A program made the position numbers and the translations under genes. The notes under the pieces are model-generated. The model was given only the letters and a program-made list of their open reading frames with translations. It was not told the DNA's origin and searched no databases. Positions 26,554-64,000 of a stretch of 64,000 nucleotides of DNA are shown here, piece by piece. The stretch is from Ceratodon purpureus. Lineage: Eukaryota > Streptophyta > Bryopsida > Pseudoditrichales > Ditrichaceae. How positions within the stretch are numbered: the stretch's first letter is position 1; every line of letters starts with the position of its first letter. Where the stretch lies: assembly GCA_014871385.1 (NCBI GenBank), contig CM026424.1, positions 12,123,115-12,187,114 on the forward strand, read 5' to 3'.

Positions 26554-27796
26554 ATCACACTTCGAGTGCCGAACTTGCGCTCACTTCGCACCGTCCTCCC
26601 ACCACCTTCCCATTTTCCTAAGTTTACTCTCCACCACCTTCCTACACTCCCACCGCCCTCCGCCTCCCACTTAAAGGTTCATGTTCCACGATTGAGCCTG
26701 AGTGTAGTGTGTGTCAATATTTGGGATGAGAGTTTCGGAGTGTGCCACTCGGAGTGCGCGTAGACCTGGCACCAGCCAGTTCGCATGTCAGAACCAACAC
26801 GTGGTGCGAAAGAAAAAGCAGACGACATCGGACATTCGTCAAGGACTAAATGAAAAATACCTGTGCAAACCGAGTATGTATACAGTCGCATACCATGAGG
26901 ATGAAAAGCTCTTGTACACAAATATCTCATCCAGTATAAAATACGTATATACATACTCGGTTACACTTATACGTCCCGCTACGGTTAAGCATAGAACTTA
27001 TACCTGATGTACAGAAGGTCAGATTAGAATTAACGACAAACAAGGCATTAACAAAACAGTAGAAATCAGATTATCCACTAAACAAGTGAAAAGTTGGATA
27101 GTGTATCCGATGATAGACTGAATGGATCGATTAGACTGCAGAGAATAAGTGTACACATACTGCTCAGATCCCAAGAGCGCAAATGTCGGGGTGAAACAAA
27201 CAGAATTTAATTGAAAACAGTTAGAGACACATACAAGCACATAGCCTCCCGAGATTAATACAATATTGAGTTCGTATGGTACCAATAATAAAAGCGGTAA
27301 CGACTAGATCGAATCAAATCAGCTCATGCAGTGCAGAATCAAGAAAAAAGCTTCGGTATTAAATAACCATTTGGCGCCGGCGCCAAATGCAAATGCAAGA
27401 CAACATGGCACCTTCAGCGCTGCCAAGTAAGCACGAACATCATTCCTCGAAAAACAATCGGCAATCGATTTCACGGAACAATATATTGAAATATCCCAAC
27501 CAAGTATACCATACAGAACACCAGATATATTTCTGATTAAGGGACGCAAGCAACGACATTGGCGCCAGCGCCACTCGGAAATGTAGCCCGAGAAATAAAA
27601 TCTACGAGCAACAACAACGGCTTAAGCGACTAAGATAAAAATCTGATAGAACCGGAGGTGAGTGTCACGACCGATCAGATATAAATATTGGCAAAAAAAA
27701 TCTGATCTAAACGTAACGACCAAATATAACTAAGACAAACTAGGCACCAAAGGAAGAGATCGAATGCAGGATCCTTCAAGTCGATCAGTCGTCCAT
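26554..27796. other. Intergenic, left edge of the palindrome-bearing region
   Basis: No convincing gene. It contains the first two copies of the TGGCGC-NN-GCGCCA palindrome at 27,372-27,385 and 27,560-27,573. The first is embedded in a longer perfect 22-bp palindrome beginning CATTTGGCG (27,368-27,389). Confidence 0.6.
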
Positions 27797-28435
27797 TTAT
27801 GTGTGAGTGAGCTGGAGCTCAAGTTCCTCCCAGCGGTTGTTGCCAGTTACCAAATATCTCACTGTACCCCGGTGGATCCAGCGCTTCTCCACCCGGTCAA
27901 GCTGCCAGAAATCGAGAACTTGCATACGGAGGCATCCTTTCACCCGCCTTGAGAGAAGGACCTGCATTGCGGGCAGCGATTCCCAATTAGAATCCAAGAA
28001 GAGCGATACTTGGTCGGAAACTGGCCCAAAACTCCCTCCACGAATCAAAACGAAGTGAGGATGATAAGGAAACTTATCAGCGCAAACTCCATAGCAGATC
28101 GATGTCCAAGAGAACGTCTCCTCAGGGCATGGCTCTAACACAGGAAGAATCTCAGCTAGTAGCTTCATCAATCTACTGGAGGATAGTGATCGAAACCATC
28201 GAGAACTCAAGGAAGAATTCGGCACAATGGAATCATAATTCGGTTCGAAATCGGAGTCGCTACTATCACCTTGGCCTTCACCGGAGACAATCTGAGCGCC
28301 CGGGATACAATTAACCCACCTCGTTGCTAATCCAGCCATTAACGCATCAAATATCGGACCATTCGACGATGGAGCCCTAGGGGCTGAGCTCAGCAGCAAC
28401 GCAGACGGAAAGCATGTGGAGCGCTTCTCCGCCAT
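27797..28435 (-). CDS. Unknown protein, 212 aa
   Basis: Single open frame from the ATG at 28,435 (MAEKRSTCF) to a stop at 27,797. There is an acidic Ser/Asp stretch near residues 45-60 (GQGDSSDSDFEPNYDS), a hydrophobic mid-section and a Trp- and Arg-rich C-terminal part (VLDFWQLDRVEKRWIHRG). I recognise no family, signal peptide or membrane helix. It lies downstream of the ParB/methyltransferase-like gene on the same strand, with a small plus-strand gene between them. The composition looks protein-like, but no splice or homology evidence supports it independently. It could be the last exon of a larger gene. Confidence 0.5.
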   Translation of the reverse strand: MAEKRSTCFPSALLLSSAPRAPSSNGPIFDALMAGLATRWVNCIPGAQIVSGEGQGDSSDSDFEPNYDSIVPNSSLSSRWFRSLSSSRLMKLLAEILPVLEPCPEETFSWTSICYGVCADKFPYHPHFVLIRGGSFGPVSDQVSLFLDSNWESLPAMQVLLSRRVKGCLRMQVLDFWQLDRVEKRWIHRGTVRYLVTGNNRWEELELQLTHT

Positions 28436-29838: not shown

Positions 29839-32800
29839 TTAGATAGCTATTCCATTCGAACTACCGCTGAGGGCCGGTTGTGGCGTAGGATGGGAAAACT
29901 GAGCGTCCAGCTCCGCGAAGTGCTGATGCAAGGTTAGCAGGCGACTGTCCTCGATTCCCCTGTCCGCGGCGAGTGTCACTGGGAATTCATTTAGACACAT
30001 GTTGTATGCAGCCTCGTCCGCCTCCAGGGCGAGTACATGTCTGCCGCTTAACTCACAGGCCCGGACAGATGATCCTGTCATGACCAACAGCAGCATCACG
30101 AACTCATCAGGCCATATTTGTCATGATTATAGAAAATGTTAAAATCAATGAAATGCTCACCCATCCTTGGTTTGTAGTTTGATTTCACTATGAATAGCCT
30201 TACCAATTCCTCCTGTTAAGTCGAGAACGGCGCTCCCTTTTCCAGTACAGATTTCTATCATAGTTTCCATGAATGCAGGTGACTTCTGTTTTGAGCCACG
30301 ATACGACACAGTTTCCTCGCAGCGAAGTAGATTTTCATCCGTCACAACATTCTCAAGCACATCGGACGATTCGGGATTCCAATCCATGACCTTGCTTGCA
30401 ATTTCGTTAAATTGGAATTTGATGTGGCTCATAGATTTTCGCCTTAGCACCTTAGCTTTGAAGAGACGCTTCTGAAGTCAACAAACATAGCACACTTCAG
30501 TGATGAATCCAAGTTCGGCATAACGGAATGAGCTAAAAACGAAATAGACTTATATTAAGTAAAGGACACGAAGAGAGAAGGTGTACCCAGAGGGGCGAAA
30601 ATGGCCTGTGGTTGATCACATAAAAGGTCCGCATACATTCCCAGTCGCTAGCCCAGACCGGGGACATCAATGTTGGTTGCTCCTCCGCCGGAACGAATAA
30701 CAGAATAAATCCCGAGTCCGCTAGTACGGATTCCGCAACATGGAATATGGCCGGAAATGTGGTTCGCTTAACCATGTTCCAAGGCGGCGTCTCAGATCTT
30801 CCATTGACAGTTACATCAGGTACTTCGCTATTATCCGGGGTGTCGCAGAGAATCAGGTCGACACAATGTGGGCTCCATACTCTATTATGCTGCCGGAGCC
30901 GTCCTCCATTGATCTACAATTATAACGAAATAGAAAAAAAAATTAGAAGGTAAACTAATGGCGCCGGCGCCAACCTTAAACATTAAGAGGTCGACTGAAT
31001 TCCCAGTCCACCAGTCAACTTAACATGCAGTTGAAAACCAAGGCTAGGTAGTCTACGATGCATACTGTCCATTGATGTAAATACATTCTGACATTAATAG
31101 TACTTGGATTCATAAGGGAATCCCAGTTGGCGCCGGCGCCACCTATGCCCAGTAAGAAGTCGAATAATTTCCTAACGGTATTTGTCCACGTCACATTCAT
31201 AATCGCAGTCAGTATCATAGCAAGCTGTTCTCTGTATCAAGATGCTTAATGAAAACAATGTGGATAGAAACGCAATAAGCACATTTGGAAAACAAAATCC
31301 TGACTTCACGCAAACTGACTTGCCACCTCAATAATTGAGATTTGGTAGGTCAGGACTAAGCATAACTGCGAAAGACGCCGGCGCCAACTCATAGAAGAAG
31401 ATAACTTGCTACATACACTCCAAAATCCAAGAAGGAAAATAGATAACCAAAGTTCTACTAAGCAAAACAAATAAGGTCGGGCAAATGACTCAGAAAAACA
31501 TGCTTCTAAGAGGGAACTGACGCCAGCGCCGTGATCTGGAATGTGCACTGACCTTAACAAGCGACCTGGAATGTTCTGATACATTGTTGGAGTAGCAAAA
31601 CGAAGGACAAATTCTGAAAACTGACTGAACTCTACGGAATAGTGATTGCTACGAGCGAAATAATCGAAGGAGCTAAAAAACTCAGACTCAAGGTAGTTAC
31701 TGAACTTTTCGAAACCAAACCAGAATGATAAAGATGTCTTGGAGAAAACCTGCTTCTCCAAAAAAAAGAAAAAAAGAAAATAAAAATACCTGCTTAATAG
31801 CGCCCAAGAATGAATTAAAGTCTGAATGCTTCATTCCCTCGACAAATTTATCAAACGCAAAGTTCATCGATAGCTTGACAGTCGGCGCGACGCCTTCGAT
31901 CTTCAGCGCTTCGTATTTCCCCGGCAACGACGATTTCTGTAACTTCTTCCTAGTTTTTGAGGATGTCTTGCGCTGAGAAGAGCCAATCTCCGAGACGTTT
32001 TGATGAAGGTCATCAGCAACCGGGACCTCTTGCGAAATCTTCTTTGGTCTTAAGTTATGCAGGTGACCACCACTGCGACCCTCCTGAGCATCGCTACCAC
32101 TTTCCGAATTGCGCGGTTTGGGAACTGAAGGGTGGGCATTCACACCCTCAACATCCGACATAGCACCTGGAATACTGCCACTACCATCCTGAACCTGCGA
32201 TTGAAGACTCTGGACTTCCTTCCCGGTTTTGAAGGCAATCATTTCCTGCAGCTCATGAAACATTACGGGTACGTAATGAGCGACGGAAGTCCAAGAGTTA
32301 GATATAGGAACGTACACTTTGTTTTGCCTACCCGATAACGCAGAAAGCAGTGTAGAGGATGGAACTACCGTGTCGCTATCTCCTGACTCCAGGTCGGTCT
32401 TCGACTGCACGAGTTCTTTTATCTCTTCAAGTGTGGCGTCGAGAGCCTCTGCCTTTTCCAAGAATGATGCTGACTCTAGTGCTTCAATCTCCTTCAGAAC
32501 GCAGCCAAGAAGGGCTTCATCATGCACATCCAGAAAGCCCTCTACATCAGGAACGTTCTCGATGTACCAACCAAGCCCTTTAAGATGCGGTGGATCAAGT
32601 TTCGATATCTGCTCCTTGGTATAAACCCCATCCTCGGAGATCCGGAGCCAGTCCTGGAATACGGGAAACTTACTGATATCCCCGCTCTCCCTTGGCAGCA
32701 ATCTTGTGGTCTCGCAAATCCAGCGAACAAACCTCATTACAAACCGACGGACAGCCTTCTCGCCCAAGTCGTAGGTAATCTGATCCTTCAAGCACTTGTG

Positions 32801-35800
32801 CCGAACGGGCCCTCCGTCAGGAATAAAAATCTCTGGGAAAAAGTTGTAAAAACCATAAACCATAACCTTGTCAAAACACTCCTCAAAATGGGGACGTAAA
32901 TCAGCAGCTCGAACAATCCCAACTCCCTTCTCTGGTTTTGATTTCGAGACCAATTCCGAGAGAATTTCAAATGCCCGGGTGCCCATCTGCATCACAATGC
33001 GAAAATCTTATCATTCTGCGAAGTCAAAGCGCATATCTAGCAATCACCCTACACATACCAGATCTAACAAATCATGCAAACATCGCTATAACTTTATGCA
33101 AAAAACAAAAAACAATTATATATGAACTCAAACATAATACAAACGATATTCGAAGTAGGAGAAGTAAATCCATACAGTGGTACATCGGTTTGAGCGAAAT
33201 GACTGGGGCCTACCTGCTCCCACCAAGCTCTACGATTCAACCACTTTTGAAATGCAGCCCTGGTAAAATCCAAGTCGGGGAAGTGGTACCGTTCTTTATC
33301 AGCGGTGGTCCCATTCCAGAGCTTCAATACCCTATGAATGTCCACCCCTTGTGCCCCAACAAGAATGCCAAGATTGTCAATAGTCATCGCACCTGTCTTC
33401 CTCTGAGGTGCCCGCGTGTGAGCATCGAGTTCATCAGCAAGATGGGGATGGTATTTAGGATTGCATAGCCTGAAGATTTTCTTCATATAGTCTAACTTCT
33501 CCTTTCTTGTAGAATGGGCGCCTTCAAACTTAGCTTCCTCAATCTGCTTAGGCGTCGGATTTTTAACCTCTTCCTTCAAAGCCTTCACTCCTTCTCGCTC
33601 AGCCAGAGTTATCTCACGCTGCGTAAGCAGATATAAAACCGTCAGGATCTCAGAAAACATCCAGATCACAGCTTACAAAACTAACCCATGGATGATCCTT
33701 CTTGATCAGACGCTAGATATGACAGGACAGTAGCCCTTAGTTGAGATGCAGAGACATGGAAACCACTGATAGTGGTTCAGCATGCCGAGTGAATGGTTAC
33801 CATCATCAGTAAGTTCAAATTTAACCGCAACGTAAAGTAACTAACTAGGATAACGATGTCTAGCATTAAAGATATCTGGGAACCTAGCAACAAAAGCTGT
33901 CAACGCAACCAGTTGCTAAAAGAACGAGGCAAACAGTTAACATAATGTTTAAGACATCCAAATTGCGAACTGTACAGCCATCCAGGACATAGCAGACACT
34001 AAAAGAAGTTCTCCAGAGTTGCGAAACGCGCAATGCTCAGATAGAAAAATTAGACTAAAACACTGTAGTGACCAGAAATGATGAAAACTGACGAGTTTTA
34101 GAACCGCTCCAACTTCAAGAGCTGCTGGCGCCGGCACCATTTGCCCCTCAGGTGAAGAATTCATGTTCAGAATAGACACAAGAAGCTGAAACGAAAACTA
34201 ATTGTTCTACTGAATGAATCGATCAAGAAACATGACAATTAGACAATAAGACTGTAATTGAGAGGATGGCAAGTCCGCTTGGAGAGTGTTCTTCGGAGAC
34301 CGACTGATTTACCAAAGAAATCACGAAATCGCGCACGGCTAATTTTAAAAGCAGCAGATATGCTCCGAAATCATAGGTTGCATATCCAAAGAGGCATCAA
34401 CAATACGCAATTAAACGAATTACAATGATCAAACACACCTTGAAATATACTTCAGTGACGGCATCGCACGTCATGTTGTACCAGCGCCCTTTGCAAACAT
34501 CATTGATTCTTATCATCTCGTCATCAGAGAAATAGTGGCTATACTCCTTCGGATCCCTCTTCGCGATTTGCATAACTTCATATAGGACATGGGCCAGCTG
34601 CTTTTTAACAGTGGTGTTCGAGGTTCCACTGGCACAAACAAATTTCACTACGGTCAGGAAATCAAACATAAAACAGATTAAAAAGATAGGATTCGAAGTT
34701 GAACCGGAAAACATGATACATGTCTGGAGATGATCCTAAAAACGCGAAATGAAACAACCAAGTCATCAGGATAAACAAACTCATCGAGACTTACTCATTT
34801 ATATCACGCATAAAGTTGGAAATCCAGCCACGATCTGCTTCAGTATCGTTCAGGACGAAGCAGCTTACTTTGATGGGGTCACCGTTGTTCTCTTTTATGT
34901 GCTGCATCCATGCAAGAGCACGGTGGTTCCCATCCCACACATTGACGTACTGACCAATAATCCTCTCATACACACCTTTGTTCTCTGGGTCGGTATCGCA
35001 AAGCTTCTTCAGTTCAGCATCAAATTCATCAGAAAGTGCTTGCCACCGTCCCAAGTCCTCGAATCCTTCCCCTGGAAACTTTCCAGGGCTCCCGCAACAA
35101 GTAACCCAAAAATTAGTACCCCAGTTCCCGATATGGAAACCTTCGTAGACTGTCTGGACATCCGCTGGAAGAGCTTGTCGAACCCATGTTGTTGGTTTCA
35201 GCCTACATAGCGGAATCTCAAGGCGCACAGGTACTATCTTCCGTATCTCCAAGTGTTTGCGGATGTTGACTTGGCTAAACAATTTCTCTTGAAAGCTCTC
35301 GAAGGATGTCACAGATGGATTGGGGTCTTTGCCCCGTTCAATGGCCTCTTCACAGCCATCGTCGTCGTTGACCGGCTCAATCTCGCCCCAGTCTTGTTGA
35401 GCAGCGCTGAGACCTGTGTCTGCATTCTGAGCAACCAAAAGGAAACACTGAGCAACCAAACAGAAAAACTAAGCAATAACCAACTGGTACCCTAATTTAA
35501 AGGAACAATGTGCTGAATATAATCACGGCTGCATTGAAAGATTGAATGCATTGGATTTTTTAGGAAAACAAAGATATCGAGAATAAAGGATAGAATAAAA
35601 TAGGCCAGGATTGAAGCAATTATTGATACTACGAACAATTCCGTGAGAAGCCCGAATAAAAGAAGAGCGTATCCAAAGATCAATAGTACTCGCATGGACG
35701 AACCGCGCTGGCACCCTCTGCGGGATTACGTATAGAATCAACTAAAGTCTGGTACCTATGAACTGCTGAGGAGCACATTCAGTCAACATCTTAGCGCGGA

Positions 35801-37055: not shown

Positions 37056-37611
37056 TTAACTAACTTATAATGAAGTCCACGAGATATTGGTGACCTACTA
37101 ATAATGGAACACGAGGATGACACGCAGCAGAAGGGCACGAGACAAAGGTAAAGGCGCTGTGAGGATATGGTCAACTGGAGAGCTTCTATTTATAGGAGAT
37201 TTGGAATTGTCCTCACGTCCCATCGGCGCCACAGAGATCCGTTGGGAACACATTTCTCATCCGCCGATGACTCAGATCCGCTTTTGGAGCACGAATAGGT
37301 GCCGGCTAAATAATATTGTTGAGGTATTACGGCTGATACATAAATCGTCTGCTTCCTTTTGACGGCTATGGATTAATTCGTAAGTAATCGACCGTTTGAT
37401 TAGCACTTTTCTGATTCACCGCAATAAAAATGATTGATCCCGTTGTAACCATTCCAACGGACTTGATTTAGATTTTATAAAGAAGATTGAACAGAAATGA
37501 ATCATGTCAATTACAACTTACAGCTGTTGTGTTACTCAGAGTGAATAGGTCCAGGTCTGCCCATTACCTTTGGAACAAGTTGCTCGGTAATTGGAAGTCT
37601 GTAGCTTTGAG
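37056..37611. promoter_or_regulatory. Divergent promoter between ParB-like gene and transposase
   Basis: The two largest genes of the region point away from each other across 556 bases. The minus side has a clear TATA box. On the plus side TTTATAAAG near 37,475 is the best candidate. One half palindrome lies between. A shared control region is plausible but unproven. Confidence 0.5.
37186..37195 (-). promoter_or_regulatory. TATA box of the ParB-like gene
   Basis: CTATAAATAG on the minus strand, about 130 bases before the ATG at 37,055. A half palindrome GGCGCCA stands about 30 bases further upstream at 37,225-37,231. Confidence 0.6.
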
Positions 37612-40600
37612 ATGGCGCAATCTAGTAAGATGATCTTTCGTTTAGCGGGAGAGCTCTCTCATTTGAAATATTCGTCATCTGATGCAGACATCGAGATCCC
37701 AGAGTTGGAACTCGTTCTGGCCTTTGGGCTGCAAGTGGGCACAGTCCACGTTAAGAGAATAGATTTGCAGGGCGCGGTGAGGGGGGACTATTGGCCGGAG
37801 GAGATAGAAGGCCAATCCCGATTCAATCTGCCAGTGCTTGATGGTGCCTCGTTCATTGTGTTTGGTGAGAAAGATCCAGGTCCTTCTCGGCCTCTGAGTG
37901 CTGCTGGAATAGTGGCAAGGACGCCGACGCCACTAATTGAGCTAGACGACACATCTGTGGACACGACTAGCACAAGGAGCCAGATGTCGTCCCCAACCAG
38001 AGTGTTACCAGGTACATCTACGGTTGCGCAAGCTCCTAACAGGCTGGAAGACTATCCAATCGAACGTATTGACGATACACCAACTCCTGGTGGCCATTCT
38101 TCTCGAGTTACGTTATTAGCTCCAGCTGATGACGGATTTGCACCATTGACTGGACATAGGATCGAATCACCACTGATTAATGTAGTGGGACAAACATTTC
38201 ACGATGCTGCCTGTGCCCCGACACCCACTATTGACAGCTTTGAGGGCATCGTCATGGAGGACATATCGTACCCAAGCATGCCAAGACCGAATGCGCCAAA
38301 CGAGGTGGAGGAAGTCGCTCAAATCCCAGGTAGTCGATCTATTCTACCCCTTTTAATGGGTTTGGCAAACCGTGGATGTACAGGGGAATTAGCATTCTTG
38401 CCGTTTGCTGATTTTCAAAGGACCAAATGCAACTATCTTCCAATGGATTATGATGGGAATTGTATATTTGAACTCCCACCAGTGATAGACGATGATACAA
38501 TCTCTACAGATATATCTTTTGATGGTCATCCTTGGGTTAAGTCCAATAGTTACAAGTCAAACCTCATAGAAGATGCAGGCCTCCGAGTCCGGAAATCGTT
38601 CTGTAGTGGTTCATTCATATGCAGAAGTCCAGAGTGCGGCCATCTTACTCTTCATGGGATACCAAACACGCTTTATTGGGAAGGCCGGTGCCAGGCCAAG
38701 CCTAAAGCCGGAAACTTTCCAATCGATGGTGACTGGAGGTGCTCGTTTTGCCGGTGGACTCCTACCTGTGTCTCGCAGTGTTCAAGTATTCTTTGGGTAG
38801 TTCACCACGAATCTGACCTCTATACTCGAGCGGTCGTGCATACTGGCAAGCATTCCCATCCATCACCGCCTGGAAGAAGTCGAGAAGCATATGCCAACAT
38901 GACAGTCACCATTCAGAAGTACCTTGATCTGAATCCTTGGCTCATGGATGCTCCCGGCTGGGTCGGGTTCCGTTGCGCGCACAGAAACTTCCTGGATTTG
39001 ATTATGAACTCGACCACCGTTGAAGAACAACAGCTTTTGACAGAATCGCAGCTCAATGAGATTCTCGAAACTGCACCACCATACCACGACAAGGGACGGG
39101 TCAAATACGTCGTCACAAAATTCAGGTCAGACCAGGAGCGCTGTATTTTTGCCTTGAAGAAATTCTCTCGTTACAACTATATCCAAGATAGCCATTTTCC
39201 AGGACAGTCTCATAATGGCATTAAATTTGTGTTCAAGATGTCTACCGTGGGCATTGGAAGTGGTGTTGCCATTGTGAAAAGGATGCAATCTGGGGATCTT
39301 AAGGATTCCTTCATCATGTTTGATCACATCAAACGTGTGAATATGTGGACAACAATGGCTGCGCACGTATATGACCACAACCTTGGGAGGCTACTGACAA
39401 TTGCAGTATGTGAGATGAAACTAGAAAACACTGAGAACCAGGTTAAGTTTTGGGAGCTACTGATAGAGACGGTAGTTCATAGTGGTCAGCCTCGTCCAAG
39501 GTTCAGAGGGTTTATGGCTGATGCCGCTCCTGCAAATTATAACGCAGTCAGAAAGGTCTTTGGACACTCAGAGGGATTAGATGGCAACGTTGGGGACGAG
39601 GAACCAGTTCTTAATCCGAATGACCCAATCCTGCGAACCTGCTATTTCCATTTTGTTCAAAGTATTCGTGATCATACAAACAAGTGGGTTCATGAGAAGT
39701 ACCGCACCCACCATGTAGAACTTTGCAAAAGATGGGCCGCAGCTCCAACGAACGAGGAATTCCGCGAAATCGCGTTTGAATTGGAGGATTTTTGGACTAA
39801 CTCAGGCGCTGTGCACAAGGACAACCTCAGGAACATGATGGCCTGGATGACATGGTGGATGGCCAGGCGCACTCTCTTTGCATATCACCACCTCAATGAA
39901 CTCGAGCTTGACCTTGAGCGAGAAGCATTGGTACCTAACACAAATCTTTGCGAAGCAGTCCATAGTTCCATGTGGGCAACATCGGCAAGCGGATTCAAAG
40001 TAAAAATGGATTTGTATACCGTCTGCGCAGAGGACATGACGAGATCATTACTACAACAACAGTTTTGTTTGGCCGCATCAAAGGGACTCTTGCGAGGTAC
40101 TGGCCCATCAAAGGCCGAGTTAATGTGGCGCAATGCAGCTAGGTCTCATAAACCAGAGCGTTTCGCCATGGTCGTTAAGGCAGCTGTTGAAGGAACTCCG
40201 TTTCACTCACGTGGTTTAGGATTAGAGGGGGATTTGGACCGTACCCAGAATGTGAGATGCCAGTCGCGCCCAGGAAGGCGAAAAATGGCACGATCACATA
40301 GACCGGATAAAGATAGCAGAAGCATTAGACCCCCTCTCAGGCATCAGCCTCAAGGATTTCGGAACTTGGAAGATCAGGGGAGGAGGAATACAGGATTCGA
40401 TGGAGTCGAGTCGAATCATAATACTGGTCAGGTCACCCAGGCCGAATTCTCGTTTGCGACTCCATCAGCGCCACAAACATTTCAAAGGAATCTTTTCGAC
40501 TCGCCTCAAGCGCACAGGAGTCATCTGCGGCGGGATTCACATCAGCATCTAAGAGAGAACGTCATCGCCACTGAGATGGCGCCAGCGCCAACTAACCACC

Positions 40601-41997
40601 CGAATTCATATCGGCCAACCCGTGCATTCGAGTCGTTTCAAGAAGAGGTCATGGCGCCGGCGCCAACACGGGTCCCAATGACCATGAATCACAACCTATC
40701 CCAACCATACCATTCGAGATTTCCTACGTCTCCAACTCACTACATGTCTACTAACAATGAACGATCGCTTGAGGAGACCTCTCACACTCGAAGTGATGAT
40801 GACTATGGACAGTCAGAGTCCTTTCGATTTCCAGAATCGATCCCACTTCGGGCTACGGAGCAATATCGAGCCCAAGCCAGTGATTATTCATTCAATATTC
40901 CTGGTACAAGACTCAGCAGTCCATCCACTCCATACCAAAGCCAAGCTCGTGGACCTACATCTGGTTATCAGGGCAGCCCTGATGTTTTCAATGGATTTCA
41001 CAACATTACACCCCCTCCGAGGGTTCCAATTGACGACACCTGGTCACCGCTCCCCTCATCACATCAAACTGTATATCCTAATCCAAGACATGGCGTGCAC
41101 GACTCACCAGCTTTCCAGTTTGGTCAACTTGTTCTCGAGAAAGAGACAGATCACAAGGACTGGGCTATTCGGAGATGCCTACCGAATGAAAATCCCAGAT
41201 GTTCAGCGGTGATTTATCGCAATGGACAATGGGAGAGTTGTGCGCGCAATATAAAGCCTCGGCCAGAAGCTAGCCATGCAGGTCCTAGTTTTTACGGAAC
41301 TATGGAGCAGCGATATAAAAAAAGTTTTCAGATTTATTGGTTTTGTGGGGCCACTGTGCGAGGGTGTGTGGCGACTGATCATGTCCAGCTGCTTCGAGGC
41401 GGTAAGCCCCCAGCACTGCCCTCAATTTGGCCAGTTGAGATAGGAACAAAGTTATCAACGGAAGAAGCTGCTAAGCTTGGGAGCGGGGGTTTTACCCTAG
41501 TCGAGACAGACGTACCCCAGAGTGGTAGATCTCATCCATATCAGGCTGGCGTGAGTAATCCAGTTCAGAATTTCCTTCTCGACCCTTTGAAGAGACCTCC
41601 ACGGCGCGGTGGCAAAAGGGTGAACAGACGGACCTTGACCGATGCAGGCGAGTCTCGAAGGAAGGAGGGTCTAATGATGACTGCCCAAGTCCGCCTCCTG
41701 GATGAGGAACCTGCGTCAGGTTCTTACCGATTCGGCTTGAACACCATATCCCGAACAACAAACAAACCCGTTAGCTATATAGTCACAATCAGTGACACAC
41801 CTGGGTGCAATTGCCCATTTTTTGTCAGCAGTGTGGCTGATAGCAAAAATGGTCAATACTTTCTGACGTGTAAACATATGTACCATGTTTACAATGTTGT
41901 AGTCGGACTACCACTGCATGATGAGAGGCCTCATCAAGCCACTTTGAGTTGGGTGGAGGTTGACGATATAATGAGAACTTGGAGGAACTCGCGATAG
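37612..41997 (+). CDS. MULE-type DDE transposase with SWIM zinc finger
   Basis: Intronless, 1,461 aa from the first ATG at 37,612. A Pro/Thr/Ser-rich N-terminus is followed by a Cys/His domain (C377xxC380 ... HTGKHSH at 410-416), like the WRKY/GCM or FLYWCH fingers of Mutator-family transposases. The catalytic core shows Asp571 (MFDHIKRVN), Asp637 (FMADAAPAN), the C677xxH680 signature of MULEs (TCYFHFVQS) and Glu781 (NTNLCEAVHSS). A disordered 600-residue linker, rich in Pro, Ser, Arg and Gln, contains two in-frame palindrome copies. Near the C-terminus is a SWIM finger, CNC at 1399-1401 and CKH at 1420-1422. Family knowledge: such enzymes cut and paste elements with long inverted termini and 9-bp duplications. 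The frame is uninterrupted and the triad is present, so it may be active. Terminal repeats were not found within the window. Confidence 0.87.
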   Translation: MAQSSKMIFRLAGELSHLKYSSSDADIEIPELELVLAFGLQVGTVHVKRIDLQGAVRGDYWPEEIEGQSRFNLPVLDGASFIVFGEKDPGPSRPLSAAGIVARTPTPLIELDDTSVDTTSTRSQMSSPTRVLPGTSTVAQAPNRLEDYPIERIDDTPTPGGHSSRVTLLAPADDGFAPLTGHRIESPLINVVGQTFHDAACAPTPTIDSFEGIVMEDISYPSMPRPNAPNEVEEVAQIPGSRSILPLLMGLANRGCTGELAFLPFADFQRTKCNYLPMDYDGNCIFELPPVIDDDTISTDISFDGHPWVKSNSYKSNLIEDAGLRVRKSFCSGSFICRSPECGHLTLHGIPNTLYWEGRCQAKPKAGNFPIDGDWRCSFCRWTPTCVSQCSSILWVVHHESDLYTRAVVHTGKHSHPSPPGRSREAYANMTVTIQKYLDLNPWLMDAPGWVGFRCAHRNFLDLIMNSTTVEEQQLLTESQLNEILETAPPYHDKGRVKYVVTKFRSDQERCIFALKKFSRYNYIQDSHFPGQSHNGIKFVFKMSTVGIGSGVAIVKRMQSGDLKDSFIMFDHIKRVNMWTTMAAHVYDHNLGRLLTIAVCEMKLENTENQVKFWELLIETVVHSGQPRPRFRGFMADAAPANYNAVRKVFGHSEGLDGNVGDEEPVLNPNDPILRTCYFHFVQSIRDHTNKWVHEKYRTHHVELCKRWAAAPTNEEFREIAFELEDFWTNSGAVHKDNLRNMMAWMTWWMARRTLFAYHHLNELELDLEREALVPNTNLCEAVHSSMWATSASGFKVKMDLYTVCAEDMTRSLLQQQFCLAASKGLLRGTGPSKAELMWRNAARSHKPERFAMVVKAAVEGTPFHSRGLGLEGDLDRTQNVRCQSRPGRRKMARSHRPDKDSRSIRPPLRHQPQGFRNLEDQGRRNTGFDGVESNHNTGQVTQAEFSFATPSAPQTFQRNLFDSPQAHRSHLRRDSHQHLRENVIATEMAPAPTNHPNSYRPTRAFESFQEEVMAPAPTRVPMTMNHNLSQPYHSRFPTSPTHYMSTNNERSLEETSHTRSDDDYGQSESFRFPESIPLRATEQYRAQASDYSFNIPGTRLSSPSTPYQSQARGPTSGYQGSPDVFNGFHNITPPPRVPIDDTWSPLPSSHQTVYPNPRHGVHDSPAFQFGQLVLEKETDHKDWAIRRCLPNENPRCSAVIYRNGQWESCARNIKPRPEASHAGPSFYGTMEQRYKKSFQIYWFCGATVRGCVATDHVQLLRGGKPPALPSIWPVEIGTKLSTEEAAKLGSGGFTLVETDVPQSGRSHPYQAGVSNPVQNFLLDPLKRPPRRGGKRVNRRTLTDAGESRRKEGLMMTAQVRLLDEEPASGSYRFGLNTISRTTNKPVSYIVTISDTPGCNCPFFVSSVADSKNGQYFLTCKHMYHVYNVVVGLPLHDERPHQATLSWVEVDDIMRTWRNSR
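40577..40665. repeat. Two perfect palindromes within the transposase frame
   Basis: Copies at 40,577-40,590 and 40,652-40,665 are in the same frame, and each encodes Met-Ala-Pro-Ala-Pro (residues 989-993 and 1014-1018), 75 bases apart, in the disordered linker. Another altered copy at 37,919 encodes Thr-Pro-Thr-Pro. Confidence 0.9.
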
Positions 41998-43076
41998 AAT
42001 ACATGTCCATCCATGTACATCTTCAGAACTTAGTTATGGCGCGGGCGCCAACTGAGGATCAGAATGACTATCACCCCAATCTAATTTTATTTGAAATGAA
42101 AATGGTCGAATTTATAGTTCATATATATTATGTTTTATCCTATCTAAATTGTCATATCCTTTTCATATATATCTCATGATGATCATAAACAATATCTGGA
42201 TATTATTCTGTCCTTTACTCAGTACCTCAAGACTGTGAGCAAAGACTCGGAAAGGAACAATCTATTCCTAGTATTGGGAAATCCTAGTACATATAGCAAA
42301 TGACTGTGTACAATCACACGGGTGGCACGATTCTATTGCTAATATTGTGAATTCTTAATACAAACTGTAAACTCCAAGGACCAAATGCAAATGAGGAACT
42401 AGTATTATAATGAAATTGGGCTTGATAAATGACAGACTGTGTTCACGAGAGGAAATGCATCCTTTTGAAATTGCGACAAGACAATATTGCAAATTACGAC
42501 ATATTTTAATTCACGACTTAATCATACGAATCAATTTCCTCCAAAGTGTGACGAAGTAGCCAGGTACAAATAAAACATAAATGAAATTCGATATACTCAA
42601 TTTTAAACAAGAATGGCGCCAGCGCCATTATTCATCGACATGAACGAAACGGCATTGTTATTTATCGTTTGGTGAATAATATCGTTGCTGGTTATCGTTG
42701 CTGGGATTCATTACGCAGCAGTCCCTCATGAGGATCTCGCGATTATTTACAGTCAGAGAAGATACCATGTACCTGACTATGTCCGTATGAGCTATAATGG
42801 GTTTAACTACTTGGAGCTTGCGATTGGCGCCGGCGCCGCTTCCCCAATCTGCATTGAGTTAGGCTTCATGGGTTTTTGAATTTATGCACTGACATCGACA
42901 AACGGCTTCTTTAACACAACGATGCATATATAAGCAATGTGTTATGCATTCTGAACTCAGAACTACTAAACTCCTTGCTGTTTGCGTACGACACTGTGTG
43001 GAGCTTTCTTATTTGAGTACTCATTCATTTTGAGTGATACCTAGCGAGAATTCAGGTTCCTTCTTTGCGTTTTGCC
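41998..43076. other. Spacer with three palindromes
   Basis: No convincing gene. Palindromes lie at 42,037 (40 bases after the transposase stop), 42,614 and 42,825. A short open frame around 42,685-42,879 lacks an ATG at its start and spans a palindrome, so I do not call it. Confidence 0.6.
42927..42933 (+). promoter_or_regulatory. TATA box of the RING-like gene
   Basis: TATATAA 150 bases before the ATG at 43,077. A near-perfect palindrome lies about 90 bases upstream of it (42,825-42,838), a position typical of an activator or repressor site. Confidence 0.6.
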
Positions 43077-47725: not shown

Positions 47726-48910
47726 TCGTTAGACTAGATCGGTAATCCAGTAATCTAGAATGTTTGCTTTAGAACTCACCTGATACTGTGTTAGCAACCG
47801 ACACGATTCGATGGAGGTATAACAACCTGTGCTTTAAATTCGCTCTTGGCATTTGGCGCCGGCGCCATTCTTGATAAGCAATGTGTCTTCATTTTCTGTG
47901 CCAAATTTGATCAATGACTTAGCCCTCGGTTGAAGGGATATGATCATTTCAATCTAAATGATCTTCATTTTATTTTTCACTCGATACTTTCACTACTGTG
48001 TCTATTGCACAATCAAATTGGGCACTTTACTGGTTTCTCAATGCTTACTTGGTTTCAATATTCTCAGTAAATCTAAATTTCTTAACTCTGGCCAGTTTGT
48101 TTGGTGTCAAAATGAATATTCCTCCTGATATCCAAAGTATCAGTCAACACACATATCGGTTCATTCTCTAAATCATCTTGAAGGCTATTATAGATACATT
48201 ACGCCAAATTAGAATATGATACTGAAAACAAATTACCAATTTGGAAAATAAAATTGGCCTTCGTCTTCACCGAAGGATAATTATAGTCGAGGCATTGTCA
48301 TTGACCAGTAGTAAAACTGAGGCTTGTGTTGTGTTCTTCTATAGTTAGATGCTGGATATTCTAGACAGTGGTACGCCTCATACAGACAATTAAGATGGCA
48401 ACCTTTGCAGTTAATTCCTTTCATTTGAATTAAAACAAGAAATTAATCTGAGAAAGCACAATATCGATGACGAGGAATCTTAACTAGGTTGGAGTCGTAG
48501 ATTAGTTATTTTCATATGAACCTATCAACTGACATTAGAAAATATGACGGCTATTCAAATGTCGCATTTGGACAGTGATTGAGAACGGCAGAGTAACTCA
48601 GGTCTCGATGCACGCAGCAATTGATTGCGCCGGCGAGAACAATGTCGACCAACTAAACATGTTCGTTGGATATTAATGTAGCGATCGAATTTTCCCCAAA
48701 GCTAGTCATGGCCGATACGGACAGGCGCCGGAACTCACAGCATTTATACGAAACCAAATGGACATCTTACCATCGCATATAAGTCAATGTCACTAGCAAT
48801 AGTTTCTTCTGTGTGCACTTCCGGGTTTGGCCATTGTTGGTCGTTGCTTGATCTCGCCAAAGGTCCACTTCAGAGCTGAGAGTGTATTCTAGAGGAATAG
48901 CTGAGCGATC
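47726..48910. other. Spacer with one perfect palindrome and a half-site
   Basis: No gene seen. A perfect palindrome lies at 47,854-47,867 about 130 bases after the preceding stop. Degenerate copies are at 48,625 and 48,723. Confidence 0.6.
48778..48783 (+). promoter_or_regulatory. TATA-like element of the 48,911 gene
   Basis: CATATAAG about 130 bases before the ATG, with a GGCGCCGG half-site (48,724-48,731) about 50 bases upstream of it. Confidence 0.45.
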
Positions 48911-49462
48911 ATGAGTGACGTTTCAGTGATGACTCAGAAAGCCGATGCAATGCCATCCGATCAAGTAGTGCCGGAAGTATCCTCCGTTGAACGAGCTACA
49001 GACATGGGAAGCCTCCCGGACGCGGAGAAGCTGGCGGATACAGATTGTGCCAACGTACTAGTTCAGCTCGTCTCAACGTTAGACGGGCCCTCACCATTAG
49101 ATCATGCAGTTTCCAAGATCCCCTCAGTGGGCGGCGCTCACCTAGCAGCACCAATTTCAGGCTCGGACGGTTGCTTGATCCCGCCAAAGACTTTGAAGCG
49201 GGCTTGTCCAACAGTAGTTTACCGGAGACGTAAGCAACGGCTTGTGGAGAAAGAGTTTGCTGGCCCAACGACTATTAAACTAGCGGAGCAACTGCGATAC
49301 AACTTTAGCAAAAGTCTATCACTAGAAGAATCGAGCCCATCTGAGCCACTATTAGCGGACCAGGTTTTCAGTAATCTTTCTAGATATCCTGTTGACCACG
49401 GCAACAAAGACTTAGGGGATCGATGTGAAGAGCGTAGCTCTTCTCCGAAGCAGTCTTTATAG
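48911..49462 (+). CDS. Unknown acidic protein, 183 aa
   Basis: Single open frame from the ATG at 48,911 to 49,462. The N-terminal half is acidic and Ser/Val-rich (VPEVSSVERATDMG, PDAEKLADTD). The middle has a basic cluster, VVYRRRKQRLVEKEF (about residues 102-116), that could act as a nuclear signal or nucleic-acid contact. The C-terminal third is Ser/Glu-rich with LADQVFSNLSRYP. I recognise no family, no membrane segment and no signal peptide. The upstream TATA-like element with a palindrome half-site matches the arrangement at the RING-like gene. It could be incomplete if further exons lie downstream. Confidence 0.5.
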   Translation: MSDVSVMTQKADAMPSDQVVPEVSSVERATDMGSLPDAEKLADTDCANVLVQLVSTLDGPSPLDHAVSKIPSVGGAHLAAPISGSDGCLIPPKTLKRACPTVVYRRRKQRLVEKEFAGPTTIKLAEQLRYNFSKSLSLEESSPSEPLLADQVFSNLSRYPVDHGNKDLGDRCEERSSSPKQSL

Positions 49463-50543
49463 TCAAAGTTAGGCTCTTCTGTTGATATGATCGCCTTAAC
49501 GCTTTTTTAATATGTCCCGCAATTTGTAATTCGAGTTTGAGATACTCGCCTTCTCGCTAATGATTAGAGTCCACCGACTTACGTTCTTGAGTAGTTCCGT
49601 TGGTCGTTGCCTGTTTGTGGTTTACGTACCCATGGCGCAATTGTATGGCGCGGGCGCCAGTCGTTCACGTATTCTTGAATTAAGCACTCCAAATTTGAAT
49701 CATGTCTTGCGGGCTACTGATTCATGGAAGTTCCGACTTTCGCAGAGCAGCACCTTTGCATATCTTGAATCAAAGCAATGATGCCGGGACTAGACCTTGG
49801 ACTTAAATCTTCACAACGCTGCATCTCTGCACATCTTGAATCGGACCAATGATGATCCTGAATCGGCAAAAAATGCGTATGATCATTCAAAAGATGACAT
49901 AACTAGGTGAGAATCACATGATTTTCTTTTGAAGCAAACGAAGTAAACTATTGCAAGTGACAAAAATTCACCCAGCCTTCATCGGAGCTATAACCAGAGC
50001 GTGAAAGAGCCGACCAATGGACAGGTTCAAGTATCCCGCTTGGTGGGACTAGATGATCATTTCAAGATATCCATGTTAAGTCCGTGAGAAGATTATCCAT
50101 GATCATCGTTTTCCGACCATTTTACTTATGAGAGGATGTGATGGCGCCAGCGCCAATTGTCACCCAATATGCCTATACAAAATTTCGCAGCGGCGCCCCA
50201 CTAGTTCCTTGTTCTACGACATAAACATTCGGTCCAGAATCTTCAAGCCATCCACCTTATTGATAATCCGGGAGCATTGGTGGTGTGTATCTCGATGGTG
50301 TATAAACCAATTCAAGCTCCCGATTCAAGACAGATCCCGATGAATTTTTACAAGATTGTATACGAATAAGATCTGCTGAGCAAAAAGATAAGTCTACATG
50401 TGATAATCTGCTCGTTAGCTTTATAATAATCATTAATCATACATCTAAACCGAATTGTCCAAGTTTAATTTTTAAGTTTAGTTATAATCTAGTACAAAAA
50501 TTTGTATTTAAATATTGCTATGAAATATGAATTACAAGGACTA
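49463..50543. other. Spacer with two perfect palindromes
   Basis: No convincing gene. Palindromes lie at 49,646-49,659 and 50,142-50,155, the last before the AT-rich gap. A short repeated phrase (gcagagcagcacctttgcatatcttgaat versus gctgcatctctgcacatcttgaat) occurs near 49,741 and 49,819. Confidence 0.6.
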
Positions 50544-51773: not shown

Positions 51774-52023
51774 AGGTAGAATGACCTTAAACCGTGCGAC
51801 CCCCCGGAAGCGCAGGGTAGACCGCCCCTGTAGCCGCCCATAGCATGGACCTTATTGCGTGCACAACAATTTCATAAATAGTGACTCGATATGGACATGT
51901 GTAGGGAGGTGGTTGGTTCATGGTTCATGGTTCATGTGTAGGGAGGTGGTTGGTTCATGGTTGGTTCATGGTTCATGGTTCATGCTCAATCTCTTATTCG
52001 CACGGTTTAAGGTCATTCTACCT
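51774..52023. mobile_element. MITE with TA target duplication and internal minisatellite
   Basis: 250 bp with perfect 25-base terminal inverted repeats beginning AGGTAGAATGACCTTAAACC, flanked by TA. The termini resemble those of the 50,544 element (AGGT-x-GA...ACC). Its interior contains a ggttcatg-type minisatellite (about 51,915-51,984). Confidence 0.8.
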
Positions 52024-52114
52024 TAGTTTGAGAAATGGAATCATAGGGAATCTTCTAATTGAAGCACAGTAATCAAGTTTTGGTGTCATGGTGGTCGGAT
52101 TTAGGTGGGCCTAC

Positions 52115-52232
52115 ATATTGGTAATTCATATTATTAATTCATACTGGTAATTCATATTGGTATTTCATATTGGTAATTCATATTGGTAAGTCATACTAGT
52201 AATTCATATTGGTAAGTCATATTGGTAATTCT
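52115..52232. repeat. 13-14-bp tandem repeat (attggtaattcat)
   Basis: About nine imperfect units at the left edge of the very AT-rich stretch. Confidence 0.85.
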
Positions 52233-52239
52233 TTCAAAA

Positions 52240-58890: not shown

Positions 58891-58942
58891 AGTGATTAAG
58901 GAGTATTTTCTCTCGGAGGATAGTTTATTCGAAGTAGTCAAT

Positions 58943-59594
58943 ATGCAATTCATTGCTGGTATACCTGATGAAGTTGTGGTGCGGAGCTTCCTGCCGAAGC
59001 TTAGGGCTCCTTTGAATCGAAGAGGAAAGTGTACCCTGGACAGGAGAGCGCTAAAGGATGTGGTGCAGAGGCTTCGGAGGTGTTGGGCGGTGTCGTCCTT
59101 GTGGAAATCTAGTATCGAAAACTCTGCAGAATGGGCAGCGTGGCGACTAGCGAGGTCGGAAGCGGACCTATATCGCCAAAATTCGACTGGGTCAGGTAAG
59201 CCTCTACATAGTACTTAAAAATTAAGATCAAGGTTTGTTGCCTGTATCATGTTTTGCCATTCCTGAACTCTCCAGTCATCAATTTGCGAATTAACCGTAT
59301 CATTTTCCAGGATATTCGCCGGTTGAGATTGACCCCGGCCACCCCTTCTACGGAAAAGCGGACCCCTTCGAGAATTTCAAGACTAACGTAAATGCTTTTG
59401 TCAAGTCTAAGGCAATCTGCGTGCATTGTAAGCGGCATCCGCCGCTATCATCACGCGAGCTGAACTCGCCCATGTCGATGTTGTCACTTCTCGAGCTTGC
59501 CAACCTACGTAACGTCTTGACAAAGTCAGTCCGCGGTGTATGCAAAGGGTCGGCAGAGCAGATCTGGGTGGCCCCACTAGATCGCTTAGACTGA
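58943..59594 (+). CDS. F-box-like small protein, paralogue 2 (two exons)
   Basis: Exon 1 58943-59195 (donor TCAG|GTAAGC) and exon 2 59311-59594 (acceptor CATTTTCCAG) give 178 aa. The block order is that of the 47,100 gene: FIAGIPDEVVVRSFLPKLRA, AEWAAWRLAR, DPGHPFYGKADP, NAFVKSKAICVHCKRHPPLS, IWVAPLDRLD. Protein similarity is clear while intron and flanking DNA have diverged beyond recognition. This implies an old duplication with selection on the protein. The conserved Cys/His in the CxRHPPLS block (YCRRHPPLS and HCKRHPPLS) may bind metal or hold structure. F-box reading rests only on the N-terminal 20-45 residues and an SSLWKSSIE stretch. Confidence 0.75.
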
Positions 59595-62500
59595 GTAAAA
59601 ACGTTTGCAGAATATTGAATTACAGGTTTTACATTGATTTGTCTTGGTGGACATACTTTTGGGTTTTATATCGTGTGCATAAATTCAGCAATAGTGCGTT
59701 TTTATGTTAAGTATCTAGCAGTAGAGTCTGTCGTGGGAACCCTAATTAACTAGTATTTTTTGGCGGATACTTGAGACAACAATCCCATTATGCAGGGTGC
59801 TCTGTTGGCGCTGGCGCCAGTTTACGGAAATGAAAATTTTGCTTAATTTCTCGCGGGTGATTTTTTTTCACGATGTTATGTTTACAAATATTTGTGAACA
59901 TGGGCGCCCTACTTGGCTGTGCTTCTGTATGTCGGGGATGTGTTGTTCAAATCTTAGTATCAGGAGATGAAGCGAATTTGTTTTTCATATTAAAATCTAA
60001 AGAAACAGTCTGTCTAAAGCTTCGTTGGAAGTGCAAATGCAATGGATGACGTCAGAATTCAATTTGATTAAGAGTTTTGTTTGGTCTTGACCTGATTCGG
60101 TGGTGCAGGGTGTGCTGTCATTTAGAATTCCGGAACATGCATGCTGGCCACCACGGTTAGTTCAAGTTCTAAACCACATCATATTACCTAAGCAAATGTC
60201 CTTTCTTTTATGATACAAATGTAGTGCAACAATCGTGCATCAAAGGGTTGCGTATTCACTTAGCCATTCTTAACTTATTTGTGGTGAAAGGTTGCTTTTG
60301 CTGATTTTCATATTGAGTTTGCTATTTATCTTGGATATTGTTGCGTGTATCGAACAATCCTATGGTGCCATCGGTATGATTCATGGGGAGCGCAAAAATG
60401 TAGTCGACCAATATGCTGACTGAATTATGCGAATGCTAAGACTTGAGGTAAGTCGTACATTCAGATTTTCATATACTTGGTTGTTAGAATAGTTGTTATT
60501 TAGCTTAGTCTGGTTTCACTGGACCGCATGGATAATGAAAATTCAAAAACAGCATATACAGCGTCACTAAGATACATAATTTAATACATAACTAGCATGT
60601 ATCAGATATGTATAAGAAGAGTATTATTCAGACGTCCATGAAACAAAATATTAGGCGGTCACGAAAATCTCACTTAGAGTGCATGTGCTTGATAGTATCG
60701 TTTAGTTATCAAAACCGTAATATTTTAGGATATTGATAGTTTGCCCTAACGCTTGGAATTGCAACAACAGCTGATTAAAAGCTTCGTAGTTCTAGGTAAT
60801 TGTTTACTGCCCGAATATTTGTGAGAATAAAGAATTAAATAACTGGTAGATTGCTATAACAAGTATTGTGAATGGCACTTTAGAACTTGTTAAATAGTTC
60901 TTATGACTCATTTATGATCAAACAGTGCCCTACATGGGATCCAGGTGTTGCCGATTTCCATCCAAAAAATAGAACTGTTCGGATAGTTCTTATGATTTGG
61001 TTTCACGGTGGTTCACCCCAGGGTATATTTGGTGCTAACTGATTATATTAGCAAGGTGCGAATAGTGATCAGGAGGCTAGGCGAGGTCCTGAAAGGTTTG
61101 GATGTCTTTACCATCTTTATCTTTCCTATCAAGAATTAGTTTAGTTCTGTCACATAAATGAATATTTTGGTCCGGGACCGCCATTGTTAGGAACTCAAGG
61201 GTCTGAGCAGACATTTGATTATGTTTTATTAAGATCAACAAGTTTTTCTATAAGTGTGCAGAGAATATTTCCTTCTTATAAGAAGTTGGTGTAACTTGTG
61301 GCAGAAATGAACTTTTTAACATGTATGATACTTGGAATGGTTAAAAAACATTTCATTCTTCTTAGATTTTTGTATTGCTGAGATGATGTGACAGAGAAAG
61401 CGTTCAACGGAATCATGGACTAAATGGACATTCAGGAGGTGCTGAAACCCAGTTCCTTCGTGGTCTTCCAAATTGATTTCAGGGAACATGATGCAATGAT
61501 CTGGGGTTATTTGAGGACCGGCGCCAGCGAGAAGTGAGATAACTCTATTGTATTACATGCCAGGCATCTCTAAGACCATGTCCCTAATCAGTTTAATTTT
61601 CCTTATTTTTGCGAAATCAGATGAGTGGAGGTAGTCAAGAGCACCGTCTGGCGCTGGCGCCGTTCAAGGTCCCTGATAAGTGAAGGCTCGCGCTTCCCGA
61701 AGGGCAAACACGAGGAAGTGCACAATGGAAAAAATGCTAATAGCGAATTAGCGGCTCAACTCATACGAGACGTATGTGATGCCAATCAGGGCAAATTAAT
61801 ATAGATAACCATACTTTAGGCGATTTCGGTTTCGTGCCAATTCGACACATTCTATATTTTATGGTGATTAATTTGTCTGTGTTCATGCCTTCTAGTTTTG
61901 ATGTCTTGTAGTTTGGTTCTTTCAACACTCAATTTTTCATACTCTTGACGAAGGTTTTAATGGAAGTACTTATGCTCTTTTGCAGGTTGCGGGAAGTCAA
62001 CGAGACACTTGAATTGAATATATCTGCAGGTGATGTTAGGTGATAGCGTTAAACTGTGGTATGATAAATTGAGCAGGTAGAATTGAGGCTGTTTTTGCTG
62101 CACTGAAATGATAAGATGGTTTGAGCAAAAGAAGGTCTTTAATACATAACTATTTTCAAAACGTTTTAACTCGACAGCTTGCATTCTCGGAATAATGGAT
62201 CTTTACGTTATAGCGGCTATACTGTGTATGATTCCACAGTGGTTTAATTTCATTTTAAATATCCGAGTGTGAGTTTGGAGAATCTGGATACAGTATAATT
62301 GTCATCAAAATATCACATCGTATGCAATTTGAATTATACGCTGCAGGATTGTAAAAGCTAGGTTATTGAAGTTTGCTCCTTTTTCATGTATGCAAAATCA
62401 CATATTCACGAATGCCTATGCAAACGTTAATTTTGACGGTATCGGTTTCCCATTCTTTAAGTACATTAGTTTCATCCTCCATAAACTTGTAGCAACCGAA

Positions 62501-64000
62501 TTGTTGCAAAGTCTGGATTTTTGGTCTGGTGTTTTGAATTCCACTAGACTCTTGGAAATCGGAGTTAACAATCTTTAGTATTCATTAAGCAAGGACCCAA
62601 GTCAAATTTCAGAAAGGTCATATGTGAACAATGCTTTGAGTTTTTGCGAGTGGCGCAGGCGCCAACCGGAATTCAGATAAGTTCGGTGTGTGGCCCAGGT
62701 GACCAACGGCATTATGACGAGGAGTCTTGAACCTCTGGCCAAATTTTGTTGTGAAGTTAGTATAATTGACATACAAAATATCTGGTATTAGATGAAGATA
62801 TTAGACCCTGGTTATTACTTTATTTTCCACCAATTCTGGTTTATCCATCAGATTTTCCTATTGCACCACTGCACACATTCACCTAATTAATGAACGTCAA
62901 TAAGAAGAATGTTACTGTAGTTTAAAGTAATGCCTTGAGTTGAAATTTAATTTCTTTGTTCAGTTTGATAATACAAAAATACCAATTACAATACAAAACA
63001 AGAGATTTTGTTTAAAGAAGTGTTATGAGAATATCACTCAATCTGTTTCAAAAAAAAAAGGAAAAAAAAAAAAGAATATCACTCAGGGGCCTAAGAGTGG
63101 CGCCGGCGCCATATGAGTAAAAGTCCAAAGAAAGGTCAATGTTTTATATAACAATAATAATAACAGTTACCAATCAGACCACCGACTATAGAACCTTTTT
63201 TGTAGAAAATTAGACACGTCAGGATGAACTAACTGATTAAGCAAATACAATCGTTGCAGAAAAGTGGAGTAACACATTTGATGATGATCCCACTTAATAA
63301 ATGAATGCATTTTTAGCTTATTCATACTATTTTTAACATGAATAAAAAGTATTCTCAAGCTATACTGCTCATTGAGCAACTAAAAGGAAGGAACTGAATG
63401 TTTTTTTTGTTAACTGTGGACACCCGTCTCATTGATCAAGTTAGGTGAGTAGACGACAATTTGATGCAGCTATTGAAATTGCAATCCAACATATTTATGC
63501 ACAGTTTTCTGAGTATAGGACTTGTACTTGATATGATCAGAGGGGCTAAAATGTTCGAATCCGAATTGAAAATGGCTGAGAACTGAAGATGAGGACCTTA
63601 TAATTATTGACAAATTAAACTGTCTGCGTCTGAAGTGCAATTCAAAGAAACGCCATTAATGTAAGAATTCCGTAACAGCGTACTTACTAGAACGCATTAT
63701 ATCAGAGTCATTTGATGCACCAATGTTACCATTATACCAAGCCTTTCCTACTAAATGCCTGCCGCCAAGTTCACCCCAACGAATAGGAAGAAGGACGCAA
63801 ACTGTTCTCGGGCACACAGAGGTGGCTCACAAAGTTTTTCTTGCAATAGTCAGACCAGATTGCAGCAAGCTCAGAAAGGAAGAGCTAGATAGAAGAGTTA
63901 GACCAGATTTACAGAGACGATGGAGGATACTCGTAGTGAGCGATATTTTGCAACTACGATAGGTCTCCCAAACTACGGCTTGGATCCCACCAAAGATTGC
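59595..64000. other. Palindrome-bearing right end, few or no genes
   Basis: Palindromes at 59,806; 61,519 (weak); 61,649; 62,651; and 63,098 show that the marked region resumes and continues toward the window edge. No long open frame is convincing. A 38-codon frame at 61,424-61,537 ends through a palindrome copy (reading RTGASEK) and could be an exon. An ATG-initiated basic 79-codon frame at 63,723-63,962 may be a gene or exon whose continuation lies outside the window. Neither has family support. Confidence 0.5.

Follow-up and report, generated by a model that had tools for sequence, protein, structure and literature searches.

Which transposon or gene does a palindrome dispersed over tens of kilobases of a moss genome belong to, and which protein reads it? 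The question is raised by a window of 64,000 nucleotides of Ceratodon purpureus (C4:12123115-12187114, in a genome of 362 Mb and 151 contigs), where a sequence-only reading had noticed about 28 copies of TGGCGCNNGCGCCA and had likened them to a sequence that a dimeric protein recognises at many sites. Our results indicate that these sites belong to a giant Mutator-like element (MULE), which carries them along its length and encodes, next to its transposase, a ParB-like protein that probably binds them. The palindrome is real and far above chance: the window holds 14 perfect copies, spanning 27372 to 63111, against a mean of 0.00 across 100 dinucleotide shuffles. The total of about 28 hinges on the mismatches allowed, since allowing at most two gives 23 sites (0.62 expected) and a third mismatch adds 7 further sites within the first 27 kb that look like background. 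One site of the former class, at 25828, also falls there, outside the element; perfect copies were not found upstream of 27372 in the window, in agreement with the absence from the first 27 kb reported earlier.

The single region to which the copies had been said to be confined is the window part (26723..64000) of an element of 52.5 kb. Comparison with a copy at C1:20.26-20.37 Mb places this element between 26723 and 79256 in extended coordinates (C4:~12202370), i.e., its right end is about 15 kb beyond the window. The left end, located by junction comparison, is GGGATGAGAGTTTCGGAGTGTG and is preceded by the 9 bp TCAATATTT (26714..26722), which recur after the right end. The C1 copy is flanked by its own 9-bp duplication, GGAATTGAA, if the C1 locus is read as one element, and a diverged relative of 43.0 kb (C1:675407-718414) is flanked by the 9-bp GCCCCATGG. 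At all three insertions the target duplication is within the range of 8-11 bp that defines MULEs. Both ends of the element carry a short imperfect inverted core, TTTYGGAGTGTGYCA, found in the relative with two mismatches per end; terminal inverted repeats are not universal among MULEs. The target duplication, the bounded ends, the imperfect terminal repeats and the transposase motifs described below suggest a giant Mutator-like transposon that lies for the most part within the window. At the C1 locus, a 10-kb run of Ns (C1:20316865-20326864) lies beside a stretch that nearly matches the window sequence, even in flank beyond the element, and the contig end there is probably chimeric. Because of this interruption we treated the locus as one element. 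Two tandem elements were considered and rejected, since a single target duplication is common to the left flank of one C1 copy and the right flank of the second.

All 22 perfect sites lie inside the window element and none in 41,357 bp of fetched flank (the tally used 79251 rather than 79256 as the right end, which gives the same counts). The figures for the relative at C1:675407-718414 are 18 of 18 inside and none in 26,992 bp. The sites of both elements are confined to elements that carry a ParB-like/MULE gene pair, a coincidence that the sequence-only reading had proposed as a check. The DNA of the two elements aligns only in coding parts, yet both carry the palindrome. Perfect copies form pairs near the left end (27372 and 27560, 649 and 837 bp in; 27372..27573), within intron 4 of the ParB-like gene (30959 and 31128; 30959..31141) and in the variable linker of the transposase open reading frame (ORF), where they read MAPAP (40577 and 40652; 40577..40665). 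The others in the window are at 42037, 40 bp beyond the transposase stop, and 42614 (42037..42627), at 47854, 49646 and 50142 (47854..50155), and at 59806, 62651 and 63098 (59806..63111); eight more follow past the window end, up to 78217 in extended coordinates. Twenty of the 22 sites are outside the listed exons and ORFs, which occupy 27% of the element (P 0.036), and the remaining two are those of the transposase linker, where the relative also has sites. The stretch 52000-58000, inside the element, is AT-rich (25-28% GC) and without a perfect palindrome, and the copies are mostly less conserved there (83-87%).

The earlier description of the motif needs some changes in the light of the perfect sites, 40 in all, that the window element and the relative at C1:675407-718414 contain. 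The centre bases do not vary freely, as had been thought, but are restricted to CG, CA/TG, GG and AG/CT, and every site therefore holds at least one GGCGCC. The outer flanks are indeed unrelated (the best pair is identical at 32 of 60 positions), apart from a weak preference for C at -4 (37 of 80 half-sites). The AT-rich setting stands in a mild form, the element having 41% GC.

The palindromes are conserved better than nearby DNA in both directions of comparison between the window copy and the C1 copy. Each of the 22 perfect sites in the window copy has a perfect counterpart in the C1 copy. Four of these are in the chimeric-looking part, and the other 18 are all kept, compared with 8.98 expected from windows within 1 kb (P ~2e-6). 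Conversely, 18 of the 20 C1-copy sites outside the chimeric part are kept in the window copy (9.91 expected, P ~1e-4). In the other part of the C1 locus, which is not independent of the first, 8 of 8 sites are kept (4.67 expected, P 0.011). CpG content was considered as a cause of this conservation and rejected: among aligned windows that contain two or more CpG, only 56% are unchanged.

The gene model places the ParB-like gene next to the transposase gene and in divergent orientation, on the minus strand. Its exon 1 (34795..35468, start codon not fixed) has the ParB-N/sulfiredoxin fold in an AF2 model searched with Foldseek/VIA, and contains the box WDGNHR. This box is present in the window copy, in eight of the nine aligned relatives that reach this part (P0009 is without it; two further ones end before the position), and in one copy each of clades 2 and 3, two of the related lineages described below; in one clade-4 copy it is replaced by CDGNHR. 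Compared by eye, it would correspond to ParB box II (the P motif) with its arginine. Exons 2 (34628-34439) and 3 (33618-33214) together span 33214..34628, and their join is supported by Ceratodon M758_UG071400. Exon 3 includes a candidate DNA-binding helical segment; its AF2 model is poor and too weak for a structure search. The frame residues of this segment (MT..L, WN, FP, W) are partly kept in the three clades compared and the residues between them differ, a pattern that fits a reader whose target has changed, with the fold there putative.

Exon 4 (31790..32986) has no Pfam match, and the C-terminal exons (29842..30913, the joins after exon 5 placed by eye) encode a domain like that of N6_N4_Mtase, a DNA methyltransferase family. 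Its Pfam scores, for a gathering cut-off of 26.7 bits, are 21.9 in the window gene, 17 in the C1 relative and 27.7, i.e., a pass, in a clade-3 homologue, with no match in the clade-2 or clade-4 piece. The canonical catalytic motif IV of N6/N4 DNA methyltransferases is (D/N/S)PP(Y/F/W). It is absent from the copies examined in every clade, which have DTPD (both clade-1 elements), DVPE (one clade-2 and one clade-4 copy) or DLPF (one clade-3 copy). Judged by this motif, the methyltransferase-like module of clade 1 is probably altered or without catalytic activity. No ParB dimerisation domain was identified in the protein, no ParA was noticed among the part of the element ORFs that was scanned with Pfam, and an IMG/VR scan with the ParB-like alignment found no relative. 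The only named relatives of the exons are C. purpureus M758_UG071500 and M758_UG071400, which have neighbouring numbers on a 112-Mb contig; the public annotation seems to split one ParB-like transposon gene into these two hypothetical proteins. The adjoining transposase (37591..41997, plus strand), MULE-type by its motifs, has an N-terminal Cys/His finger, D-D-CxxH-E blocks and a C-terminal SWIM-type CxC..CxH. Judged by eye, these motifs are conserved across four aligned transposases, but the Pfam profiles for MULE, FAR1 and SWIM gave no match.

Genome-wide, TGGCGCNNGCGCCA is found 1,390 times and the reversed pattern twice, and the listed copies are strongly clustered, so that their distribution is not even. 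To relate sites to genes, we used the subset with an AG centre, which was listed completely (58 sites), and 108 clade-1 matches to exon 1 at 40% identity or more, fragments included (88 places after merging). Forty-eight of the 58 sites are at most 55 kb from such a match, in windows that make up 2.7% of the genome; the other 10 are not within 55 kb of a listed clade-1 match. Sites that share an element do not count as independent, which makes a binomial P for this overlap too small, and we take the fractions themselves as the result. The true association may be stronger, since the search scored 150 of 1,545 candidates (the 108 clade-1 rows and 42 homologues at 23-33% identity). Contig C6, which extends past 108 Mb, holds 61 of the 108 clade-1 rows, as well as 35 of the 42 that have internal stops. 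Old copies accumulate on this contig, which may be the sex chromosome: a contig of such a size (beyond 108 Mb here, 112 Mb for the named C. purpureus proteins) is presumably that of a moss.

Around two of the distant homologues, in 20 kb fetched for each, we found an adjacent divergent transposase of the same type, an end like that of the methyltransferases and no copy of TGGCGCNNGCGCCA. Three further palindromes were chosen among the repeated ones listed for a 20-kb stretch apiece; each was searched genome-wide once, and all three are given here. The clade-2 palindrome, TCTCGGATCCGAGA, has 1,160 copies and none in the control. In its source stretch, four perfect copies and one with a single mismatch form a tandem array between ParB-like coding pieces, presumably in an intron of the clade-2 gene, and a further single copy is found beyond the transposase. 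GTTCTGNNCAGAAC, one of several overlapping candidates for clade 3, has 405 copies (control 17) and ten sites with at most one mismatch in its source stretch, two of them perfect. GCTCGGNNCCGAGC, searched with an arm shorter than the longest found in clade 4, is a weaker candidate, with 155 copies against 30 in the control. Eight clade-2 ParB-like copies (L028:6500-7114, C11:8427761, C10:8586879, C5:19682355, C5:19706338, C13:2587622, C3:22420875, C3:2126611) are 98-100% identical in protein, which points to a recent spread of that family.

We then compared the clusters among the first 50 listed sites of each palindrome with ParB-like matches at most 25 kb away, in the listed places on C1 (for the first three palindromes) and on part of C2 (for GTTCTGNNCAGAAC). 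Rows 36-42% identical to the clade-3 query were set aside as a fourth clade. Clusters of the window's palindrome were near genes of clades 1, 2 and 3 in 2, 0 and 0 of 4 cases (random mean for clade 1, 0.03), those of TCTCGGATCCGAGA in 0, 9 and 0 of 18 (random mean for clade 2, 0.44) and those of GTTCTGNNCAGAAC in 0, 1 and 8 of 14 (random mean for clade 3, 0.17). In these listed places, each palindrome clusters with its own ParB-like clade; about half of the listed clusters are without a listed ParB-like match nearby. The case of GCTCGGNNCCGAGC as the clade-4 palindrome is suggestive: clade-4 genes are close to 14 of the 24 listed clusters (34 of the 50 sites), but many of the sites occupy the same position in near-identical copies. 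Because the copying of whole elements inflates all genome-wide site counts, the stronger evidence is the large number of sites that each element carries in unrelated flanks, together with the diagonal of this comparison.

The palindromes are element-borne: in the DNA examined they are confined to the element, spread along it, mostly outside exons, kept where nearby DNA changes, and, in the places listed, swapped for others in other ParB-like clades. We think it probable, with some reserve, that they are part of a transposon-borne system of the ParB/parS kind, in which a protein binds dispersed operators and probably keeps the element unsilenced or compacts it. The clade-1 protein would bind TGGCGCCGGCGCCA as a dimer, load at 20 or so places, on average ~2.4 kb apart, and then cover the element. 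Its most likely purpose would be to shield the element from silencing, as VANC does for VANDAL MULEs; the same binding might instead, or in addition, compact 50 kb so that the ends meet for transposition. We favour a ParB-like reader that keeps the element open because the layout is the same as that of VANDAL and VANC, with another protein family. The recognition sequence for a dimeric protein proposed from the sequence alone is in this way supported by confinement, conservation and colocalisation with ParB-like genes. Two points weigh on the other side. The protein that reads the sites might be another one, and conservation is less clean from the C1 copy to the window copy: 22 of 24 perfect sites are perfect in the window copy, one of the others being in a gap and one having two changes.

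The first of these points leaves room for other readers. The transposase itself might bind the palindromes as internal enhancer-like or subterminal sites, the ParB-like protein having another role. It is encoded in the same elements, it also differs between clades, and sites occur within ~1 kb of both ends. We consider this unlikely, because the palindromes span all 52 kb, some of them in introns, and the ends carry TTTYGGAGTGTGYCA instead of the palindrome. A transcription factor or repressor of the host might also read the sites, with the elements exploiting it or being its targets, and host factor sites are common in transposons. It is difficult to reconcile such a factor with the lack of perfect sites in the fetched flanks, with the proximity of most sampled copies to ParB-like genes of the family and with distinct palindromes for distinct element clades within one genome, and we regard it as improbable. 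We give as little credence to a self-marking system in which the methyltransferase-like domain modifies the palindrome: the domain does resemble N6_N4_Mtase, and phage fusions of such a domain with ParB are known, but its motif IV departs from the canonical form in each clade. That the sites are functionless hitchhikers copied with the element is very improbable, for although any sequence of a multicopy element becomes abundant (which may largely explain GCTCGGNNCCGAGC) and the window copy lacks an intact counterpart for two sites of the C1 copy, the two elements carry 22 and 18 sites, set in unrelated flanks, the sites outlast neighbouring windows in both directions, and they are common to elements that align only in coding parts.

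The element has further genes, all on the plus strand. A RING-like protein (43038..43976) is conserved between two elements and has weak Pfam matches below the cut-off. A second gene with a RING-like end, recognised by eye and by its similarity to the first, starts at 63902 (63902..64000 in the window, to ~65077 in extended coordinates) and has no RING match in Pfam. A small protein in two open pieces (47079..47722) is F-box-like by eye only, with no Pfam match, and has a paralogue at 58892..59591. Outside the element, a CT/GA-rich low-complexity repeat (13870-14380) gives SLSLSL/RERERE reading frames. An Rfam search of the window found no match.

One of the closest known parallels is that of the anti-silencing VANC proteins of Arabidopsis VANDAL MULEs, which recognise the short motif YAGTATTAY, often in tandem repeats (Hosaka et al. 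2017, PMC5735166). There as here, a MULE-encoded protein reads (here, presumably) a short motif dispersed over introns and intergenic DNA, and target motifs are family-specific and often in tandem repeats (PMC5735166). However, YAGTATTAY is not a palindrome, VANDAL copies measure several kilobases rather than 43-52 kb, and VANC has DUF1985 and DUF287, with no ParB-like domain named in the portion of PMC5735166 consulted. Neither Pfam domain matched in the element ORFs scanned, the ParB-like gene being scanned in pieces. The ParB/Srx fold with a GxHR-like box and the palindromic sites scattered over a replicon recall bacterial and plasmid ParB/parS, Noc and KorB. The sites of KorB and Noc are palindromes scattered in this way. 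Here, in contrast, the protein belongs to a eukaryotic transposon and has a C-terminal methyltransferase-like domain, and neither ParA nor a ParB dimerisation domain was noticed in what was scanned. Phage fusions of ParB-CTPase with N6_N4 methyltransferase join what seem to be the same two kinds of domain in a mobile element (PMC12704722), whereas the moss gene is an intron-containing plant transposon gene with a degenerate motif IV. That survey covers eukaryotes, and its main text does not contain "transpos" or "plant" (PMC12704722). The 9-bp target duplication and, judged by eye, the SWIM-type finger and the DDE-type motifs are those of MULEs in general (survey PMC6446971, in whose main text the words moss, bryophyte and Physcomitrella are absent), unlike the size of 43-52 kb and the extra genes; the Pack-MULEs of Jiang et al. 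2004 are not above 7 kb, according to PMC6431247.

We found no published description of such a system in the open-access literature searched. The results suggest that transposons tag their own DNA in a manner not reported so far, in three (perhaps four) element lineages, each with its own palindrome. A wider view, which we advance tentatively, is that plants harbour a large superfamily of giant MULEs with a system of the ParB/parS type, in which nucleotide-regulated clamps loaded at lineage-specific palindromes mark the element in chromatin, and protein and operator co-diversify, insulating sister lineages. If the proposed system is real, sequence-specific self-recognition in plant transposons would have been built separately from VANC, from a fold of the bacterial segregation type and a methyltransferase fold. 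Clades with different operators in one genome would then offer a natural experiment in how the target of a ParB-like reader shifts, and 1,390, 1,160 and 405 sites would become directly testable. Such a system could also help explain the persistence of DNA transposons of 43-52 kb.
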